DNA from: a virus
Strand: one strand, 5' to 3'
IMG/VR virus record: IMGVR_UViG_3300010938_000015
Location: 1-27,813 of that record
DNA: 27,813 bases
Positions within the stretch are counted from its first letter, which is position 1; each line of letters begins with the position of its first letter. A program made the position numbers and the translations under genes. A model generated the notes under the pieces. The model saw nothing but the letters and a program-made list of their open reading frames with translations, ran no database searches and was not told where the DNA came from. Below, in pieces: positions 1,953 to 18,107 of this stretch.

Positions 1953-4900
1953 TTATAATTCTGGTATATCATTTCTTGTTATTTCTTTAGAATCATTCTT
2001 CTTTTTCTTAAATGAATCAATATATGATGTAAATCCGTTTCTCTCTTCTGTCATAAATTGTGTCATAGCATTTTTACTCTCTTCTATCAAATTATCTTGA
2101 AGATATGACTCTACTATAACTTCTGTTTCATCCACTCTTTGTGGAAGACCATCTAATTCGCCTCTACTCAAGAAATAATCAAGTGGCTTACTTGGATATT
2201 TACTTTCTCTAATTAATTTAATTGTATTAATTAAAGATGTTTTTTCTTCTCTAATCAGTTTTTTGGCTTGTTCAAAGATCAAGTTTTCTTGTTTATTATA
2301 TGATTCTAAACCAAGGTCGGCTTCGCCACCTTTATCAACGCCTTCTATACCTGCACCTATATCTATTTCGCCAACCCCACCTTCACTACCAAGGTCTAAG
2401 CCTCCACCTTCACCACCAAGACCACCAAGGTCTAAGCCTCCACCTCCACTACTTTCACCGCCTTTATCTTCTGACTGCTTACTTAGGCTCAATTCGATTT
2501 CATCTAAACTCATATCTGTAAATGTAGCAATTAACCATTCTGGTTTAAAGAACCCAATAGTTTTCAACCTTTCAATAACTTCTGCTCTACTTTTCCATAC
2601 TTCTATTCTATATAATTCATCTATAGCAGAGCTTGCAGTCATTCCTATGTCAAAAGACTTCATCTCTTCTATTGAATATCCACGTAAGGCCAAATGTACT
2701 AAAGCAATCTTTTTTAAACCTATTGATACAATAGATTGGATAAATTGTACTGCTTTTCCAAATTCAGGTGCTACTTGTGACAATGATTGCTTTGAATCAT
2801 CACTTTTATCACCCATACCAGCACGTGCAAATGGTATTTTAAGCGGTGCAATCATTTTCTTTTTAAAGTATTCAATATCTGCTATTTGATCTAAGTTTTC
2901 AGCACCTGGTAATGTATCAATAGTTGGACCTTCTCCGCCTGGTCTTTGTGGAAGCCAAAAATCATCTTCTTGTATTTGTGGGGACCAACGTTCAGTAACA
3001 TCGTTACTTGAGTAATCAAATATTTTCTTCTTCTTAAACGCTCTAGAAGCCATTTCAATAACATCTGGTATTTCTTTAGTTGGAATATTACCAACAGGTA
3101 TTGTAAATACACGCTTCTCTGGCGCTCTTGTTAAGCGATAAATAATAGCAGCATCTTCCATCAGGCGAAGTTGTTTAAAAGCTTTTCTTGCACCATCCAA
3201 AATAGAATTATGGACAACAATTCCATCAGCAATAAAATTCGATGCTTCATGCTCTACTTGAATATCAGCAGTTTGATGAAAACCATCTCTTTCTATAGAA
3301 ACAATTGATTCGAATAAAGTATTCGTTCCGTACCTTTGTGACTCTTTTTTACGTATATTATAACCACGTGCACCAATTCTTTGAACGTGACGACCAGCAG
3401 ATTCAAATAAGTCAGCTTTATAAAAATAAATATACCAAGTTTTAGAATGATGTATATCACATTCTGTATGCGGAGTTATAATATCACGTTCACGATTACT
3501 AATATTACCACACTTCCATCCTATCTCACCAATTAGTAACTTTATATCTTTAATTAAATCTTCATTAGCTAATTCTATCTGAAATCTTTCACAACCCCAT
3601 TCATCAATAATACTAGAGCCATCAGCATCTATTAACCCATCAATAAATGCAATTTTAACATCTAGTGGACTTTGATAAACCCACCCTGGAATACGTTTAT
3701 TTTTACAACCTTGAATAAAACCACAATTATTTTCCAAGAAATTTGAAAAGTCAACAGAGTAAGTTTTAGTAGTATCTTCCAATAAAGCACTTTGAGAGTT
3801 ACTTTTTTTGTAACTACTAGTCTTATTAGATGAATAATTATTTAAAGATTCTTTATAATATTTATTCAAATTATCATATTCATCACAAGCAAATTCTACA
3901 CCTTTATTTTGCCACTTGTTATTGCCTGTTTTATGTCTATTTAACCATCCATTGCCAATCAAAAAGCCAAATAGCTTTGCAAATTTTTCATCAGCTATAA
4001 CTTCTTTATCATTAATACTACCCAATTTAATATAATTCCTGTTATTTCTTATAGCAGCCGTTCTAGGTATTACTAATTCATCACCAAGTTTCAATTCATC
4101 AGCACGTCTATAAACAAGCTCGGACAACCATTTTCCTTGTGACTTAACCCATTGCCTAACTAAAATAGGGTGATTGCCACTACAATTATTTTCAAAATGT
4201 CTTGTTTTAATTTTATAAATTTCTTTTTCGCCACTATGGCAAGCAGCAACAACTCTTGTTTCTACAAGTTTTTCACCATCAAATGAATAAACTTTATCAT
4301 CTTTTTGAAAATCTTCAATATTCTTATAGCCAGATGGAGTAAGAACGCGAGTACCAAATATCTGACAACGACCATAAGGATGATACATTGATTCTAGGTT
4401 AGACAAGCGCAAATGCATTACTTGCCAAGGGTTAAAAAATTGAGGTGACGATGCTAATTCATCTTGATAAAAGAATCCAACTAGATCACTGTTTTTGGTT
4501 TCACACCTATTAAAATTATAAATATTTAAATGCCTAATTCTTGATACACCATTTCTATGTTCAGTTGGTATTATTTCCCAAGAACAATCACCATATTTGC
4601 ATAAGTATCTGATTATTCCTCTAATATTATTATCTATGAGTAAAGTATCAAAAAATAATGAATCCAATTCATCTTTAACTTTTTTAAATTTAGATTTAAT
4701 GAAAATTGAATGTTTACGTTCAGAGTCAACTAACGATGCTTCATCTGCATATAAATCCAATGCTAAACTTATTTCACCAACTTCATCCATCTGGTCAAAA
4801 TCTTTATATCTTTCTAACCTATTAATATGTAAGTTAGTTTGCTCCAGAAGAGATGCTGGGCTAGACTGATTTACGAAATCGCCAATTGAGGTAAATCTTC

Positions 4901-4997
4901 CAAGATCGCTCTGATTTTGGAAAATATTATCTGCATTATATATATTATTCCTTGCAAATAATGCTCTAATTCTGTCGAATACTGGAAACCAACTCAT
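1953..4997 (-). CDS. Portal vertex protein (gp20-type) interrupted by an intein
   Basis: The protein forms the dodecameric portal at the special capsid vertex, through which DNA is packaged and to which the tail joins. The 1014-residue product contains a 387-residue intein (residues 211-597); the spliced protein would be about 627 residues, compared with 524 in T4 gp20. The gp20 signature is clear just after the intein: KQLRLMEDAAIIYRLTRAPEK, then VFTIPVGNIP. The C-terminal part has a Gly/Asp-rich low-complexity stretch (rough extein residues 465-515) and a charged helical tail that ordinary gp20 lacks. The ATG at 4997 is preceded by a strong Shine-Dalgarno (AGAGGG). The gene sits 45 bases after the large terminase, as expected for a packaging module. 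Confidence 0.95.
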   Translation of the reverse strand: MSWFPVFDRIRALFARNNIYNADNIFQNQSDLGRFTSIGDFVNQSSPASLLEQTNLHINRLERYKDFDQMDEVGEISLALDLYADEASLVDSERKHSIFIKSKFKKVKDELDSLFFDTLLIDNNIRGIIRYLCKYGDCSWEIIPTEHRNGVSRIRHLNIYNFNRCETKNSDLVGFFYQDELASSPQFFNPWQVMHLRLSNLESMYHPYGRCQIFGTRVLTPSGYKNIEDFQKDDKVYSFDGEKLVETRVVAACHSGEKEIYKIKTRHFENNCSGNHPILVRQWVKSQGKWLSELVYRRADELKLGDELVIPRTAAIRNNRNYIKLGSINDKEVIADEKFAKLFGFLIGNGWLNRHKTGNNKWQNKGVEFACDEYDNLNKYYKESLNNYSSNKTSSYKKSNSQSALLEDTTKTYSVDFSNFLENNCGFIQGCKNKRIPGWVYQSPLDVKIAFIDGLIDADGSSIIDEWGCERFQIELANEDLIKDIKLLIGEIGWKCGNISNRERDIITPHTECDIHHSKTWYIYFYKADLFESAGRHVQRIGARGYNIRKKESQRYGTNTLFESIVSIERDGFHQTADIQVEHEASNFIADGIVVHNSILDGARKAFKQLRLMEDAAIIYRLTRAPEKRVFTIPVGNIPTKEIPDVIEMASRAFKKKKIFDYSSNDVTERWSPQIQEDDFWLPQRPGGEGPTIDTLPGAENLDQIADIEYFKKKMIAPLKIPFARAGMGDKSDDSKQSLSQVAPEFGKAVQFIQSIVSIGLKKIALVHLALRGYSIEEMKSFDIGMTASSAIDELYRIEVWKSRAEVIERLKTIGFFKPEWLIATFTDMSLDEIELSLSKQSEDKGGESSGGGGLDLGGLGGEGGGLDLGSEGGVGEIDIGAGIEGVDKGGEADLGLESYNKQENLIFEQAKKLIREEKTSLINTIKLIRESKYPSKPLDYFLSRGELDGLPQRVDETEVIVESYLQDNLIEESKNAMTQFMTEERNGFTSYIDSFKKKKNDSKEITRNDIPEL
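3207..4367 (-). mobile_element. LAGLIDADG intein in the portal protein
   Basis: This in-frame 387-residue insert begins with Cys right after YHPYGR and ends GIVVHN before Ser. Those are the standard intein boundaries: Cys1, C-terminal His-Asn, then Ser at +1. Block B is visible as CSGNHPI. Two endonuclease motifs are present: LFGFLIGNG (portal residues 342-350) and FIDGLIDADG (451-460). In the first, the usual catalytic Asp of IGDG is Asn349; in the second, Asp459 is intact. The splicing parts look complete, while the endonuclease may be crippled. The insertion point precedes the conserved portal sequence SILDGARKAFKQL, fitting the habit of inteins to occupy highly conserved sites. Confidence 0.95.
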
Positions 4998-9346: not shown

Positions 9347-12229
9347 CTAAGTTTTAACTTGAGATTTAGGGAATCTCCAGCGTCTTCTAATAATATCTTC
9401 ACCAGACACTTTTATCCCCTTATAAACTACCGTAGACTTATATCCTTCCGCGACAACTGCTTCTAATCTTTTTCTAGCATGTTTATATAAATAATGATTA
9501 GCCATAATCAAAAAGTCAAACACTCTTGAAGAACCTTTCTTATTCTTTCTTACTGCCCTACCAAGGCGTTGCATAAATTCTGAACCCATTTGACCATCAT
9601 AGCACAATATTAAATTCTCGCAACCACCTTTTAAATCTAAACCCCTTCTAAGAATTTTAGAACCTATCAACACTTTTAATTCTCTTGATTCAAATCGATT
9701 TATAACTTCTTCTCTTCTGCTGTCTGAAGTTTTACCATGTATAAATTCTGATCCTGGTATAACTTCTGCTAATTTTTCACCTAATGGTAAACTTTCTACT
9801 AATATTAAAGTTCCTTCATCTTTATAGAATTGACATATTTTATTTATCTTATTATGCAATTCTGTGTTTTCAATCATCCATTCTTTAATAGCACTATTGT
9901 TATCTGTTTTATCATGTTTATTACCATTTTCATTACATGCAAGCATAGTATATGTAACTGGTATAATTCTACCAATAGCTTCTAATTCATCTCTTGATGA
10001 TTGACTAATTATATTACCAAAGTGTTCTCTTATAATCAAATTCTGTACTGGTTTAGCATCATCAAATGGTGTTCCAGAAAAACCATATCTATATCGAGCA
10101 TTTATAGCTAATTTTGTAAATAAATCTGTATAGCTATCAGACGAGCTACGATCACAATTATGAACTAGAATGCCATTAGCCTCAAATCTCGATGCACCAC
10201 TTATAGTAAAATCAATTAGCCTGCAGCTTTTACTTTTACTAATACTACTAACTTCAGAAATAGTATAATTATCTATTAATGGACTTATTCTGTCAAGAAC
10301 AGATTTAATGTTAGCCATTTGTATTTTGACTGCTATTTCTAGATATTTATATCTATTTTTCCATACTGTCATTACACTTATATTAAGCATTCTAGCTATA
10401 CGTTCATCTGACAATGCTAAAATATTTTTAGCATCATTATAATTTTTAATATTCAAATTATTCAGCTTAAATTTCCAAGAATATAAAGTTTTAGTGTCAA
10501 TAACGGCATTATTAATAATATATTTCTCTGTATTAAATAATCTAGCTAAGTGTCTTGGATATAAGCCAAATTTTCTGAGATTATTATATATTTCAGTGCA
10601 GTCAAAAGATTCGCTATACGAACTTTTATGTATATTATTTTTAATTTTTCTAGCAAATTTAAATCCAACTAAATCATAAAATCTTTTACAATTTAAGCCA
10701 GATATTGTTAACCTATGCAGCACAGCATGTTTTAAATTACTTCTATGATTAGAAATAGAAATACTAGATTTAATGCCCAAATAAGTACACAAATTTTGAG
10801 CCAATTTTATTAATACTTCATCACTAGAATCAAATTTTACCCTATCAATGTAACTAGACCCTTCAGAGTCAAACAATCCACATAGCAATCCAGCTGCCGC
10901 TACTCTGCTTGGTATATCAAAATCTAAAGTCATTTTACCAGTTTTTCTACCTTTACTAAATCCCAATTCCTTAAGTTGTGTTACAAAACCATGTGACCTT
11001 ACTCTAAAAACATAGTCATTTCTATTATTAGTACATTCTACGTAATTTCCACCAAATACTTCACATATTTGTTCACATGCAATTCTCCAATCAACCGCAT
11101 CCTTTCTTACCACAAATTTTATTTGTTTATTGTTTAAAAAATGTCCATCGCCAATAAACAATCCAATCCCACGCCATTTAATAAATTCATTGCTACTTTT
11201 ATTTATATCACATATCTTATTATTTAATAATAAGTATTGCCCAATCTGTATATCTGATGAATATTCATCAGATATACTACCATCTCTATTTAAAATTGCT
11301 ATTTTATGATTTTTAGAACATATAAGTTCATGATTTTGTTTTGATTTAATTAAAATAGCGTTATCAAATTTTTCAGATTTATTTTCAATATCATAATACT
11401 TATCACCAACTTTTACTTTATATTTATTAATATTTTCATATACCCTCTTTGCTTTTATCAATCCTTTGTCTGTAGTTATATAACTGTCTTCATGTACACA
11501 TTCATCAACAAGCAGCAAATGGCATTTTTTAACTGCTTCTTGCAAGTATAAAGCATTTTTACGTCTAGTTTGCCAAGCTTTATCAGTACCAGTTCTTTTT
11601 ATTTCAGCTTTCCTAGCTGATCCTGGCGGCAAACTCAATGCTTGAATAGAGCCTACTATTATTAATTGCCCGTCTGGTCGTTTACCAGCATAAAATTCAC
11701 CAACATCTGTTATAGATCTTAATTGTAGTCTTTCTACAAGTTGGCTTAATACAATTTTTTCTTCTGCTATTACCATAGTTGGACATTTTGGAAACATAGA
11801 AATAATACCAGCAATCATTTCGCTTTTGCCACTGCCTGTTTTGTGGGCATGGATACCACAATCATGCTCATAAATAGAATTCAGGCATCGCATTTGATGA
11901 TCTTCTAATTTAATGCCTTGCAAAATATTACAGTTAAGCTGCTCTTTTGGTATTGGCTTATACTTAGGTTCTGGCCTTTGATCTACAACATCTAATGGAA
12001 TATCTTCCTTTTGACATAATCTCTTCAAATCTTCAAGGAAAGCAATTGATAGCTTCTTCCCCTTTCTGTCATAGCTTGTAATTCTTCCATCCCACTGTCC
12101 ATCTTCAAATGCTATTGAGTATCTAGCCTTTGGATCGAATACACTAAATTCTCTAACTAGTGTATCTTCAATATCTGTTGATACAAGATCAAGATATAGA
12201 TAATTATTATCTTTAATATAAGCTATCAT
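9347..12229 (-). CDS. uvsW: UvsW-type superfamily 2 helicase interrupted by an intein
   Basis: UvsW unwinds branched DNA and R-loops and drives replication fork regression in T4-type recombination and late replication. The 960-residue product holds a 448-residue intein (244-691); the spliced protein would be 512 residues, near T4 UvsW (503). Visible motifs are an N-terminal domain (1-100), motif I TGSGKS (131-136), motif II VDE split by the intein and completed by CD to give VDECD, motif III YGFSGTP just after the intein, motif V-like IGSKILRRGLDLKGG, and motif VI QRLGRAVRKNKKGSSRVFDF. The ATG at 12229 stands 18 bases after the stop of a small open frame. The alternative, a generic phage DEAD-type helicase, would not change the motif reading. 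Confidence 0.93.
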   Translation of the reverse strand: MIAYIKDNNYLYLDLVSTDIEDTLVREFSVFDPKARYSIAFEDGQWDGRITSYDRKGKKLSIAFLEDLKRLCQKEDIPLDVVDQRPEPKYKPIPKEQLNCNILQGIKLEDHQMRCLNSIYEHDCGIHAHKTGSGKSEMIAGIISMFPKCPTMVIAEEKIVLSQLVERLQLRSITDVGEFYAGKRPDGQLIIVGSIQALSLPPGSARKAEIKRTGTDKAWQTRRKNALYLQEAVKKCHLLLVDECVHEDSYITTDKGLIKAKRVYENINKYKVKVGDKYYDIENKSEKFDNAILIKSKQNHELICSKNHKIAILNRDGSISDEYSSDIQIGQYLLLNNKICDINKSSNEFIKWRGIGLFIGDGHFLNNKQIKFVVRKDAVDWRIACEQICEVFGGNYVECTNNRNDYVFRVRSHGFVTQLKELGFSKGRKTGKMTLDFDIPSRVAAAGLLCGLFDSEGSSYIDRVKFDSSDEVLIKLAQNLCTYLGIKSSISISNHRSNLKHAVLHRLTISGLNCKRFYDLVGFKFARKIKNNIHKSSYSESFDCTEIYNNLRKFGLYPRHLARLFNTEKYIINNAVIDTKTLYSWKFKLNNLNIKNYNDAKNILALSDERIARMLNISVMTVWKNRYKYLEIAVKIQMANIKSVLDRISPLIDNYTISEVSSISKSKSCRLIDFTISGASRFEANGILVHNCDRSSSDSYTDLFTKLAINARYRYGFSGTPFDDAKPVQNLIIREHFGNIISQSSRDELEAIGRIIPVTYTMLACNENGNKHDKTDNNSAIKEWMIENTELHNKINKICQFYKDEGTLILVESLPLGEKLAEVIPGSEFIHGKTSDSRREEVINRFESRELKVLIGSKILRRGLDLKGGCENLILCYDGQMGSEFMQRLGRAVRKNKKGSSRVFDFLIMANHYLYKHARKRLEAVVAEGYKSTVVYKGIKVSGEDIIRRRWRFPKSQVKT
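10157..11500 (-). mobile_element. LAGLIDADG intein with helix-turn-helix extension in UvsW
   Basis: This 448-residue in-frame insert begins with Cys after LLLVDE and ends GILVHN before Cys. Block B is CSKNHKI. Endonuclease motifs are GIGLFIGDG (residues 354-362) and LLCGLFDSEG (448-457), with acidic residues Asp361 and Glu456 both present, so the endonuclease could be active. Between about 545 and 635 there is extra sequence holding two helix-turn-helix-like segments, one around LRKFGLYPRHLARLFN and one around LSDERIARMLNISVMTVW. These could help DNA-target recognition. The element splits helicase motif II between Glu and Cys, so unspliced helicase should be inactive. Confidence 0.95.
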
Positions 12230-12546: not shown

Positions 12547-13425
12547 ATGAAGTTAACAACACTATTCGAGAATATTAAATCTATAGATGAAGCATTAAAA
12601 ATTCTATCTATCGACAGAGGATATACAATCGATAGTTTAAAATCTGCATACAGACGTGCAGCTATGAAACATCATCCAGATCGTGGTGGTTCTCATGAAG
12701 CCATGACAGACGTAAATTTAGCGTTCGAATTGTTATCTAAAAGAGTTGGGAAAAATGAGTCTGAATTCATTAAACAGGTTGATGATGAAGTTAAAGAGTC
12801 TGGCACATATAAAGGTGGTGGAAAATATTCTACAACAGCAGACTGGGAAAAGTGGATGGTCGATAGTGGGCGCGGTGAAATGCTTAAAAATATTAAAGCT
12901 AAACAAAAAGCCAAAGGTGGCGTGTATGAAACGCCAGGTGAACGTTTAAGTCGTTTAGCAGATGATAAGGGATTATTAGTTGAAATGTCTTTGGTTTTAT
13001 TTACGTTAGGGATAGATAAATATAATATTATATCACCATTTAGAGTAGAACCACTTAATATGAAAAACTATAATATGAATATAGATAAAGGTTCAATGTT
13101 AGTAAACAATAAATGGGTACCAAATGATATTGGAGAATTAGGCAAAGACCTTGAAAAAAGCGGTATAATGAAAGTGGTTCACGTTGGAACTGAACGTGAG
13201 AGAGATAATGAATTTAGTTGGCAATTTATGATAGAAATTCCAGCATTATCAAAAGACGAGTACGACAGGTTTAAATTTACATTAGTGTACGGCCCATTTA
13301 CCCATAAAAAAGTTGATGGCAAATGGTTGTTAGTAAAACCAGAAAAGCCAGAACTTCGAACTATGGGCGCTGCATATGAAGAAATGCAGGAAGCATTAAA
13401 AAATTATTTAAATTCTTTAAAATAA
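12547..13425 (+). CDS. J-domain (DnaJ-like) co-chaperone protein
   Basis: A J-domain protein, which would stimulate the ATPase of an Hsp70 (DnaK) and direct it to a client. Residues 10-65 form the J-domain: a helix with LKSAYRRAAMKHHPDRGG containing the HPD triad at 43-45, followed by helix III with NLAFELLSK. The rest (66-292) lacks the Gly/Phe linker and zinc fingers of DnaJ. It is a charged linker (75-140) and an unrecognised alpha/beta domain (145-290) that presumably binds a phage target. It is one of only two clear plus-strand genes here, facing away from UvsW, and so needs its own promoter. It probably recruits host DnaK to phage assembly or replication; that role is inferred. Confidence 0.85.
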   Translation: MKLTTLFENIKSIDEALKILSIDRGYTIDSLKSAYRRAAMKHHPDRGGSHEAMTDVNLAFELLSKRVGKNESEFIKQVDDEVKESGTYKGGGKYSTTADWEKWMVDSGRGEMLKNIKAKQKAKGGVYETPGERLSRLADDKGLLVEMSLVLFTLGIDKYNIISPFRVEPLNMKNYNMNIDKGSMLVNNKWVPNDIGELGKDLEKSGIMKVVHVGTERERDNEFSWQFMIEIPALSKDEYDRFKFTLVYGPFTHKKVDGKWLLVKPEKPELRTMGAAYEEMQEALKNYLNSLK

Positions 13426-14429: not shown

Positions 14430-17400
14430 TTATTGGCATTTTGACCAAGCACAATTTAAACACTTCTTACAACCATCTTCATAAATAATATTTGGAGTAC
14501 CACAACAACCTTCACTACACTTAGCATTTTTAATATAATTACTTAATACTCTGGCAACATGTCTTGAAAAACTATTCATATCGGCTGATTTGAATACAGT
14601 ATCACAAATATCTTCAAGATTTACACCAGATCTAATTGCTAAGTTAGTTAATAATCTTACAGTCATGCCATCTGACTGTAAGAACGATTCTTTAATTGGC
14701 CATTCAACAATTCTAGATTTACCTGTATGTGTACTGACTGGAAATACTAATGCATAAACTCTTGGCTCTAATTTTCGTATAATACCTTTAGTTATATCGG
14801 AAGGTACAGGAAGATCTTCTTTCTTACCAGCAAACACTTCATAAACTTGCCCGTTGACTAATCCAACTAATACAATATGGCCATTTGAGCGATGAATATC
14901 ACATTCAACATCGCCTGGTCTAGAGTTTTTTACTACTTTAGATTCTTCAGAAACTAAAATTCCATTTCTAGAGCCATCTACATATACAGTAACTCCTTTT
15001 AGTCCATGATGGCAAGCATCTCGATAAAATTTATCAATTGTATCTTTTGGTGTACCTTTTGGGAAATTACATGTTTGGCTTACACCGTGATCAATATAAC
15101 TTTGAATTTTTGAAACTATTCTTAATCTGTCATCAATATTTAAGTTGCTAGCTGTTACTTTTAAAAAATCTGGAAGGTTACCAATAGCATCTCTAAGAGC
15201 CTCTGAAGCTGGTTTAGTGCTTTTTGCAACAAGCTTCTCAAGCTCAACAATGTTAAATCCATTAGCTTCTGCCCAATCCAAAAATTGATTATGGAAAACT
15301 GGGTAGTGATGATACTTACTACCATCATGATCTACAGAATGTACTTCGGCATCGTTTTCTGATGTTATTTTTACTTTTCTAACATAAACAAAATCATAAA
15401 CAGGCTCCATACCAGAACTAGTACCAAACCTACCACAACTAGTTTTTGAGAGCAATGATACAGTTCCAGTAGGAGCAATTGTTAATAATGAAATATTGCG
15501 CCTGCCAAATTTTTCAATGTCATTCTGTATTTCTTTTGGTAAACGTTTAATAAAAGCACAATCTTTTTCTAGATCCCAGTCAAACATTGGGAAAGCACCT
15601 CTATCTTGTGCTAATTTCACAGACTTTTTATATGCTTCATTACGCAACGCCTGATAAATTACTTCTACCATATCATCAGACTTATTGTACGGAATATTAA
15701 GAGCCATTAAACAGTCAGCAAATCCATGTGTGCCAAGACCAGTTCTCCTACCATTAATTGCTGCCTCTTTAATTTTATTCCATAGGTCTTTTTGTATACT
15801 AAATGGAAGTTTCGCATCGTCTTTATCTTTTTCTAAATCACTTAATATCTTGTCAATTATTTCTATTTCTAAATCTACCAAATTATCTTCCATCTGCATA
15901 GCTAAGTGAACATCATTTATAAAATTTGTTAAGTCAAAGGTTGCATTTTTAGTAAATGGATTAAGGACATATCCAGCTAAGTTGATAGATATCAATCTAC
16001 AACTATCATAAGCGCTTAAGCCGATTTCAGCACAATTTCCAGAAATAACTCCATTAGCTAATACTGAATGATTATATGGTTGATTTAAGCAATAAACAGT
16101 TTGTCTTTGTTTCATTTTCTTAATAGAAGTAATTTTTGATAAGTATTTATTTCTAATAGATGATTCTGTATTATTAGATCCTGGATGCTTTATGCACCAT
16201 TCGTCAACAATTTTATTATTATCGCTCTGTATAAATCCAATCTTATCTCTAAATAATTTTACAAAATACCCACCACCTATTATCAATTCATAACATGCAT
16301 TTTGATTGTATAAACGTTCTTCACCTCTATACAACCACACACGTTTTCCCTTCTTTTTAAATCGTCTAATAGATGTTGGTATTGCAAAATTAGATAAAAG
16401 GATTTGAACATCTCGTAGTAATTTTTTATTAATAGATGCTAAGCGAACAGATATAGATTTTTTGGATTCATTAACTTGTACTGACCCGTCAGCAGAGAAT
16501 AATGAACGTAAAAATGCCGCAACAGATTCTTTATCCGATGACCATATAAATTCTGGAATTTGATGCTTCAATTTAACAGCATCATAGCCAAGTTCTAAAA
16601 ATCTATCAAATAATACATTCGATGCTAATTCATATTTTTCTGTTGTACAATTAGTATTACATGATTCCATATGAACTCGCCTTAGAGAAACTGACTTATA
16701 TGGTCTACTTGATTTATTATATTCTTCTACAACAGAGTCAAGATGCGGTTTTAATTCGCTAGCTATATCTAATTCATCATAAAAATGTAAGTAAACTCTT
16801 CCTGTTGACGTAGTACCATCTCCAATAACCCATCCAGCTAAAGCTGCTTCTCTAATATAATTGTTTTTACCAAATTTACCTTCAATAGATTGTATTAAAA
16901 GCGTGTCACCAATCTTTAATTCTTTAGTTGTTTTTTTACCATCAGTCGTAAAATGATTGTGCGATGCTGTTACTTTTAACAATTGACCATTACATAATTT
17001 AACCTGGTAGACTACTTCATTTTCACCAGTTATTTGAACTTTGCTAGATTTTACTGCTAATGTATTAATACTATATTTTGTAATATCAACAGTTCCATCT
17101 TTCGATACTCTTGGATCGTAAGTTACATATAATTCTTTATTAATTTGTTGCAATTCTTTAACAGTCAAAAGGCCATAATCAGTATTAATTCTTGTATCGC
17201 CAGTATAGCAAGGATTGGTGGTAAGTGTTTCAAATCCAAATTTTTTATAGCAGTGCGCTGGTAAATTGTTACAATAGTTATCCCACATTAGTAGCCCTGG
17301 TTCAGCATTTTCCCATGCCTGTGTTACTATCACATCCCATAGCTCTTTAGCCTTTACTACTTTTGTTATTTGTGGAGTACCAGTTACTGGCCATCTTAAT

Positions 17401-18107
17401 TCCCAGTCTTCATCTTTTTCAACAGCATCTATTAAATCGTTTGATATTTTTATTGAAACATTTGCACCGGTTACTTTGGTGCGATCGGCTTTCATCTTAG
17501 CAAATTCAATAACATCAGGATGGCGATCACTGATGGTGATCATTAATGCCCCTTGCCTTGCATTCTGTCCAACATATCTTCCAAAGAATGAGATTGCATC
17601 GCATACTGTTGGTACACCTGAGCTACTAACAGCAGCGTTATGAACAGTACTTCCTCTTGGTCTATACGTGCTAACATCTAAACCAACACCTCCACGTCTT
17701 TTCATTATTTCAACTGCCTCGTTGATTGTTGCTAAAATGCCAGACATTGAATCGCCATATTTAGCCGCATCAATTACGAAGCAATTTGAAGCACTAATTT
17801 TTGAAAATTTATTCCCGATAGCTGCCATCGGAGAACCTTGTGGAACAATTCTAGCAAATTTATCAAGAGCATCAAAGTACTCTTTGGTACTATAAATTTT
17901 AGCATGTTTATTTATATCATGATATTTCTTATCTATTCTATTAAATTCTCTTGCTAATCGCTGATGCATATCGGCAGGAGTTGATTCGTGATAGTTGTTA
18001 TTTTTATCTTTTAAAGCATACTTTTTTACAAATGTGTCCGCTGCTAGCTTATTACCATTGAAGTACTCATAAGAAGCCTTGGCGGCATCTTCTTTGTTTA
18101 ACATCAT
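14430..18107 (-). CDS. nrdJ: Class II (B12-dependent) ribonucleotide reductase with an intein
   Basis: Converts ribonucleotides to deoxyribonucleotides for phage DNA synthesis, using adenosylcobalamin to make the active-site radical. The 1225-residue product has a 392-residue intein (300-691), leaving 833. Extein motifs are SNC (first redox Cys109), KRRGGVGLDVS (137-147), the NPC-x-E motif with Asn298, the presumed thiyl Cys692 and Glu694 split by the intein, LSAYDSCRLISINL after it, QTCNFPKGT with the second redox Cys, and a Cys-rich C-terminal tail with CKKCLNC. The LSAYDSCRL form and lack of a beta-subunit gene nearby point to class II rather than class I. The start is a double ATG behind GGGATAG. 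Later phage genes follow within 30 bases. Confidence 0.93.
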   Translation of the reverse strand: MMLNKEDAAKASYEYFNGNKLAADTFVKKYALKDKNNNYHESTPADMHQRLAREFNRIDKKYHDINKHAKIYSTKEYFDALDKFARIVPQGSPMAAIGNKFSKISASNCFVIDAAKYGDSMSGILATINEAVEIMKRRGGVGLDVSTYRPRGSTVHNAAVSSSGVPTVCDAISFFGRYVGQNARQGALMITISDRHPDVIEFAKMKADRTKVTGANVSIKISNDLIDAVEKDEDWELRWPVTGTPQITKVVKAKELWDVIVTQAWENAEPGLLMWDNYCNNLPAHCYKKFGFETLTTNPCYTGDTRINTDYGLLTVKELQQINKELYVTYDPRVSKDGTVDITKYSINTLAVKSSKVQITGENEVVYQVKLCNGQLLKVTASHNHFTTDGKKTTKELKIGDTLLIQSIEGKFGKNNYIREAALAGWVIGDGTTSTGRVYLHFYDELDIASELKPHLDSVVEEYNKSSRPYKSVSLRRVHMESCNTNCTTEKYELASNVLFDRFLELGYDAVKLKHQIPEFIWSSDKESVAAFLRSLFSADGSVQVNESKKSISVRLASINKKLLRDVQILLSNFAIPTSIRRFKKKGKRVWLYRGEERLYNQNACYELIIGGGYFVKLFRDKIGFIQSDNNKIVDEWCIKHPGSNNTESSIRNKYLSKITSIKKMKQRQTVYCLNQPYNHSVLANGVISGNCAEIGLSAYDSCRLISINLAGYVLNPFTKNATFDLTNFINDVHLAMQMEDNLVDLEIEIIDKILSDLEKDKDDAKLPFSIQKDLWNKIKEAAINGRRTGLGTHGFADCLMALNIPYNKSDDMVEVIYQALRNEAYKKSVKLAQDRGAFPMFDWDLEKDCAFIKRLPKEIQNDIEKFGRRNISLLTIAPTGTVSLLSKTSCGRFGTSSGMEPVYDFVYVRKVKITSENDAEVHSVDHDGSKYHHYPVFHNQFLDWAEANGFNIVELEKLVAKSTKPASEALRDAIGNLPDFLKVTASNLNIDDRLRIVSKIQSYIDHGVSQTCNFPKGTPKDTIDKFYRDACHHGLKGVTVYVDGSRNGILVSEESKVVKNSRPGDVECDIHRSNGHIVLVGLVNGQVYEVFAGKKEDLPVPSDITKGIIRKLEPRVYALVFPVSTHTGKSRIVEWPIKESFLQSDGMTVRLLTNLAIRSGVNLEDICDTVFKSADMNSFSRHVARVLSNYIKNAKCSEGCCGTPNIIYEDGCKKCLNCAWSKCQ
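16035..17210 (-). mobile_element. LAGLIDADG intein in the reductase active site, ending Gly-Asn
   Basis: A 392-residue in-frame insert begins with Cys after TTNP and ends VISGN before Cys, which is the presumed catalytic thiyl Cys of the enzyme. Block B is visible as VTASHNHF. Endonuclease motifs are LAGWVIGDG (423-431) and FLRSLFSADG (532-541), with Asp430 and Asp540 both present. The residue before the terminal Asn is Gly, not the usual His. Some inteins lacking the penultimate His are known to splice, though more slowly. The insertion splits the Asn-x-Cys-x-Glu motif, so unspliced enzyme cannot work. Confidence 0.95.

Follow-up and report, generated by a model that had tools for sequence, protein, structure and literature searches.

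An intein that interrupts the catalytic motif of a ribonucleotide reductase (RNR), and whose C-terminus lacks the penultimate His common among class 1 inteins, raises the question of whether its splicing is constitutive or whether it is slow or conditional and so governs the supply of dNTPs. Such an intein is encoded within nrdJ in a 27,813-nt stretch of viral DNA (the window; positions 1 to 27,813 of IMG/VR record IMGVR_UViG_3300010938_000015). A sequence-only reading of this DNA had suggested the second answer. The comparisons described here favor the first: with a probability of roughly 85%, the NrdJ intein is a class 1 LAGLIDADG intein of the family found at the RNR radical-cysteine site, and its splicing is most likely constitutive. 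This family has long been known, and the NrdJ intein adds one member to it.

The nrdJ gene and the insertion point

Within the nrdJ ORF (Table 1), Pfam models identify Ribonuc_red_lgC (6e-68), LAGLIDADG_3 (6e-18), and Intein_splicing (3e-10). The top NCBIfam model is the adenosylcobalamin-dependent NrdJ (TIGR02504, 2.7e-117; 392.8 bits with the intein in place, slightly below the cut-off of 399.95), and NrdE_NrdA also matches (1.5e-46). All of the NrdJ active-site residues are found (Cys109, Cys692, Glu694, and Cys703), placing the product in the class II NrdJ sequence family. Alignment by phmmer to NrdJ of Thermotoga maritima (1XJE) pairs Cys692 with Cys322, Cys109 with Cys134, and Cys703 with Cys333; in this class II RNR, Cys322 is the thiyl-radical residue and Cys134/Cys333 form the reducing pair.

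The insertion has the layout NP/C...SGN/CAE (a slash marks a splice junction), with Cys692 as the +1 residue. The junctions can be read directly in the DNA as AAT CCT/TGC TAT ACT on the N-side and TCT GGA AAT/TGT GCT GAA on the C-side. In empty-site homologues, namely two IMG/VR contigs with the same gene order (L006 and L007; 62% identical) and Bacteroides phage DAC22, the corresponding sequences, TTNPCSEIGLSAYDSCRL and STNPCAEIAMEPYNSCRL, are uninterrupted. Since the motif TNPC[SA]EI is unbroken in these inteinless genes, the boundaries of the intein are fixed, and the alignments rule out boundaries that are wrongly placed or due to chance. An intein at the same site in contig L005 has identical boundaries. 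The anatomy given by the sequence-only reading is therefore borne out: the insertion lies inside the catalytic motif, between Asn-Pro and Cys-x-Glu; the catalytic Cys, aligned with the Thermotoga radical Cys, is also the +1 nucleophile of splicing; the intein ends in Gly391-Asn392 rather than His-Asn; the endonuclease residues Asp131 and Asp241 are intact; and the predicted spliced NrdJ is 833 aa, as had been stated.

The C-extein also carries an imperfect, in-frame 21-bp tandem duplication (15423-15443, minus strand) within a conserved stretch. It reads TSCGRFG TSSGMEP, where homologues have TSSGIEP, and is present in none of the homologues surveyed. The duplication could impair this copy of NrdJ or could be an assembly error.

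Table 1. Features of the nrdJ locus and intein-bearing genes elsewhere in the record (window positions unless a contig is named; intein residues numbered from Cys1, extein residues from the start of the precursor)
Feature	Position	Strand	Basis
nrdJ ORF with in-frame intein, 1225-aa precursor	14430..18107	-	Pfam, NCBIfam, phmmer
N-extein, residues 1-299, ending TTNP, contains Cys109	17211..18107	-	
NrdJ intein, 392 aa, CYTGDT...VISGN, residues 300-691	16035..17210	-	Pfam, DNA junctions, empty-site homologues
Splicing block B, TASH (Thr81, His84)	16959..16970	-	
LAGLIDADG motif 1, LAGWVIGDG (Asp131)	16815..16841	-	
LAGLIDADG motif 2, LRSLFSADGS (Asp241)	16482..16511	-	
Block F, VYCL, Cys374 at F:4 (usually Asp)	16086..16097	-	
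Block G, VISGN (Ser390, Gly391, Asn392); penultimate Gly391 at 16038-16040	16035..16049	-	
+1 Cys692	16032-16034	-	
C-extein, residues 692-1225	14433..16034	-	
C-extein Cys703	15999-16001	-	
Portal intein, 387 aa, ending VVHN/S, in T4-like portal ORF 1953-4997	3207-4367	-	
Helicase intein, 448 aa, ending LVHN/C, in ORF 9347-12229	10157-11500	-	
GDP-mannose 4,6-dehydratase gene, intein ending RIHN/S	L124:1048-3078	-	
ThyX gene with 348-aa intein	L131:770-2752 (G000:C1 about 56269-58251)	-	Reading of the ORF

The splicing center and the endonuclease

The center of the NrdJ intein consists of Cys1, Thr81, His84, Cys374, His381 (in block F), Ser390, Gly391, and Asn392, together with Cys at +1 and Glu at +3. 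As expected of class 1, Cys1 (Cys300 of the precursor) is present and is invariant among 29 aligned relatives, block B contains TxxH, and Asn392 directly precedes the +1 Cys692. The penultimate His, a common but not defining trait of this class, is replaced by Gly391. Class 3 inteins have no nucleophile at position 1 and carry the WCT triplet (Trp at B:12, Cys at F:4, and Thr at G:5). This class was considered and ruled out by the presence of Cys1 and by a residue other than Trp at B:12 (His86); with Ser390 at G:5, only the F:4 Cys matches the WCT set exactly.

Both catalytic LAGLIDADG Asp residues are kept. An AlphaFold2 model made from a 29-sequence alignment (mean pLDDT 91.8, pTM 0.92) predicts a HINT plus nuclease fold, and Foldseek places it closest in the PDB to full-length endonuclease inteins, TliVMA and PI-PfuI among them. 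Model confidence and these matches together argue that the intein is not a chance resemblance.

Inteins at the RNR radical-cysteine site

The NrdJ intein alone matches 41 phage records, most of them RNR genes, from SPbeta-like phages and others, and the extracted junctions show that reductases of class Ia, Ib, and II are all interrupted at one point, directly ahead of the radical cysteine. When viral and bacterial contigs were scanned as well and the sequences clustered at 80% identity, the set grew to about 67 non-redundant same-site inteins from phages and bacteria. A penultimate His is missing from 52 of the 67, a count biased toward non-His because the bacterial scan pattern contained Gly-Asn-Cys. 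Among 32 viral sequences picked by the N-junction pattern, 18 lack it (11 Gly, 2 Ser, 2 Ala, 2 Arg, and 1 Leu); this proportion is independent of the C-terminus, yet approximate, being limited by similarity to the window intein. At this site Gly/Ser/Ala is the commonest penultimate state. By comparison, about 5% of functional inteins overall are non-His at this position (PMC4031507), and, given this frequency, the chemistry of such inteins is less well studied.

On a tree of 64 rows, from which the C-terminal 26 residues were left out, the penultimate state changes only 3 times (shuffled mean, 12.9) and is thus inherited. The window intein pairs with that of L005 (support 100), its nearest row, which likewise ends in SGN, and the pair lies within a mainly Gly-type group (support 90, drawn open). 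Consequently, the missing His by itself is no sign of slow or regulated splicing, and the inference previously drawn from it must be corrected: at the RNR radical-cysteine site, inteins commonly lack this His and inherit that state. Across the tree, F:4 Cys undergoes 5 changes and appears to have been gained separately in the window/L005 pair and in the DAC16/G20c group. Within the same-site set, a penultimate His accompanies F:4 Cys in 0 of 26 inteins and F:4 Asp in 15 of 41, an association that is a clade-level correlation with just two supported independent pairs, too few to give a phylogenetically independent comparison any power; the Fisher value for this split therefore does not count as independent evidence. 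With either Asp or Cys at F:4, with His, Gly, Ser, or Ala at the penultimate position, and with a nearly constant extein context, the same-site inteins provide a natural series for Asn cyclization without His.

Several known inteins can be set beside that of NrdJ. The BnrdE (NrdE) intein of SPbeta (Bacillus phage SPBc2), which GenBank annotates in NC_001884 and which was first reported by Lazarevic et al. 1998 (cited in PMC3653736), occupies the radical-cysteine site, begins with Cys1, and has a non-His end, TGN/C. It is 385 aa long, compared with 392 aa for the NrdJ intein, 98% of which it matches at 28% identity (tblastn E 3e-31), and it falls in the same region of the tree (support 90, drawn open); however, it resides in a class Ib reductase, in the context SNL/CSE, and has Asp at F:4. 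The intein of Bacteroides phages DAC16, DAC23, and SJC03 interrupts a B12-type NrdJ at the same point and has F:4 Cys with no penultimate His, but it is 321 aa long, ends in TSQ (a C-terminal Gln), and belongs to another tree branch. The nearest relative with an intein, L005 (46% intein identity), shares SGN/C, F:4 Cys, and the gene neighborhood; its intein differs in lacking the block F His, and the contig differs in having a terminase intein and no helicase intein. The RNR intein of Chilo iridescent virus, compared here by its published description, has an atypical block G with a C-terminal Gln and still splices well (PMC4031507).

Two same-site inteins (L064 and L070) lack a C-terminal Asn or Gln, ending instead in SRG/C, and are possibly unable to cyclize or mis-bounded. 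In four other contigs (L080, L086, L093, and L096), same-site N-terminal halves stop shortly past block B; these are probable split inteins.

Constitutive or conditional splicing

The closest precedent for a Gly at the penultimate position is the class 1 intein of mycobacteriophage Bethlehem gp51, a recombination directionality factor (RDF), which interrupts a different host protein and has been tested at the bench (PMC5050341). With its native Gly, the RDF intein was fully spliced at time zero, while its Gly-to-His mutant needed more than 5 h for ~50% splicing (PMC5050341). By this analogy, the direction that the sequence-only reading expected for His versus Gly would be the opposite of that seen in the precedent. 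More generally, restoring His improves splicing in some inteins and worsens it in others (PMC4031507). With non-His the commonest state at the site and with the Bethlehem Gly as precedent, the suggestion of slow or conditional splicing is unsupported.

The most probable course of events can be outlined as follows. The NrdJ intein would be a Cys1-initiated class 1 intein with a LAGLIDADG homing endonuclease, from the family found at the site N[P/L]/CxE of RNR catalytic subunits in phages and bacteria. The nuclease would cut intein-free nrdJ at this conserved site, allowing the intein to spread. After translation, Cys1 would form the N-terminal thioester, Cys692 at +1 would then take the N-extein, and cyclization of Asn392 would proceed without a penultimate His, leaving a ligated, 833-aa NrdJ with its radical cysteine intact. 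The penultimate Gly and the F:4 Cys would be inherited family variants whose chemistry is compensated, and for this reason splicing is most likely constitutive. We infer that the intein splices, how fast it does so, and that its nuclease cuts.

Of the competing explanations, the one nearest to the original suggestion is that Cys1, Cys374, and Cys692, with their thiols close to one another, would form a disulfide under oxidation and so pause dNTP synthesis until the cell is again reducing. Redox sensitivity is chemically possible, since three thiols (Cys1, the Cys that replaces Asp at F:4, and +1 Cys) are present in the active site, but is without specific support. In the class 3 DnaB intein of M. 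smegmatis (DnaBi1), splicing stops when the F:4 Cys118 is oxidized to a disulfide with Cys48 (PMC6195587), and the ThyX intein of the same phage as NrdJ likewise combines F:4 Cys with SGN. Nevertheless, while Asp is the most frequent F:4 residue among inteins, Cys is generally the second commonest (PMC4031507). Outside the splicing center, L005 shares a single cysteine with the NrdJ intein, Cys188 of the nuclease domain, and has no counterpart to Cys73, 184, 306, or 339; the -3 position has no Cys and thus offers no extein trap, and closely related phages do without the intein. We consider such a switch very unlikely. Were redox control true, phage dNTP supply would come under the control of protein splicing, but no result here demands it. 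Nor did we find positive evidence for the broader idea that dNTP supply is tied to cell state; sister phages whose NrdJ is 98% identical lack the intein.

The F:4 Cys can also be read as part of a route like that of class 3, in which Cys374 would attack the N-terminal junction with Cys1 as an auxiliary, making the intein intermediate between classes 1 and 3. If Ser or Thr is accepted at G:5, two of the three WCT residues match; F:4 Cys occurs in 26 of the 67 same-site inteins, and 22 of those 26 have Thr/Ser at G:5. But Cys1 is retained in every same-site intein examined, B:12 is not Trp, and putting WCT into a class 1 intein allows almost no productive splicing (PMC7664689), all of which makes this route very unlikely. 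To the same low degree we credit the idea that loss of the penultimate His marks a poorly splicing intein that is being lost. The improvement of some inteins by His restoration (reviewed in PMC4031507) and the odd 21-bp duplication in the C-extein would fit with decay, but divergent members of the same-site set, with their nuclease intact, retain Gly, and the nrdJ frame is open with every active-site residue present. Decay through His loss was rejected, the state being old and shared among same-site inteins.

Mobility and dispensability

Although neighboring genes are common to the window phage, L005, and L006, only the first two of these carry the NrdJ intein; L006 lacks it, as does L007. Because close relatives have the same gene without it, the intein is dispensable, and the phages that lack it have no need of it as a switch. 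Helicase and terminase inteins are likewise patchily distributed among the window phage, L005, and L006. A comparison of DAC16 (with the intein) and DAC22 (without) shows that 836 of 851 extein residues are identical; of 34 nucleotide differences in 2556 bases, 32 lie between -496 and +155 of the insertion, a clustering never reached in 200,000 random placements. This is the pattern predicted for homing with co-conversion, observed in relatives rather than in the window phage itself.

Other inteins and genes of the phage

Judged by its portal and large terminase sequences, the 88-kb record represents a T4-like phage. It contains at least five inteins, in NrdJ, portal, helicase, GDP-mannose dehydratase, and ThyX (Table 1), the last two lying beyond the window. 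The helicase intein is inserted between LLLVDE and CDRSSSDS, right past the DE of the helicase motif, and is missing from the L005 and L006 helicases. The ThyX intein, with junctions NVSRVF/CYHPET...WSGN/THELVRHR, gave no match to the intein models PF14890, TIGR01445, and TIGR01443; since it escaped them, more divergent inteins may exist in this phage.

The portal, helicase, and sugar-dehydratase inteins end in His-Asn, while those of NrdJ and ThyX, both DNA-precursor enzymes, have a His-less center with F:4 Cys and a penultimate Gly. A joint response of NrdJ and ThyX splicing to thiol redox, through their shared Cys1, F:4 Cys, and Ser-Gly-Asn, seems most improbable. The two inteins are too divergent in sequence to show close kinship, and the shared signature may therefore be a coincidence. 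The signature also occurs outside RNR: a terminase-like gene of Bacteroides phage BS162P1 (L014:1862-4585) encodes an intein with Cys at F:4 and the end VSGN/S, whose sequence shares 27% identity with that of the NrdJ intein. Amid minus-strand genes, the window contains a single plus-strand gene (12547-13425), whose product has an N-terminal DnaJ domain.
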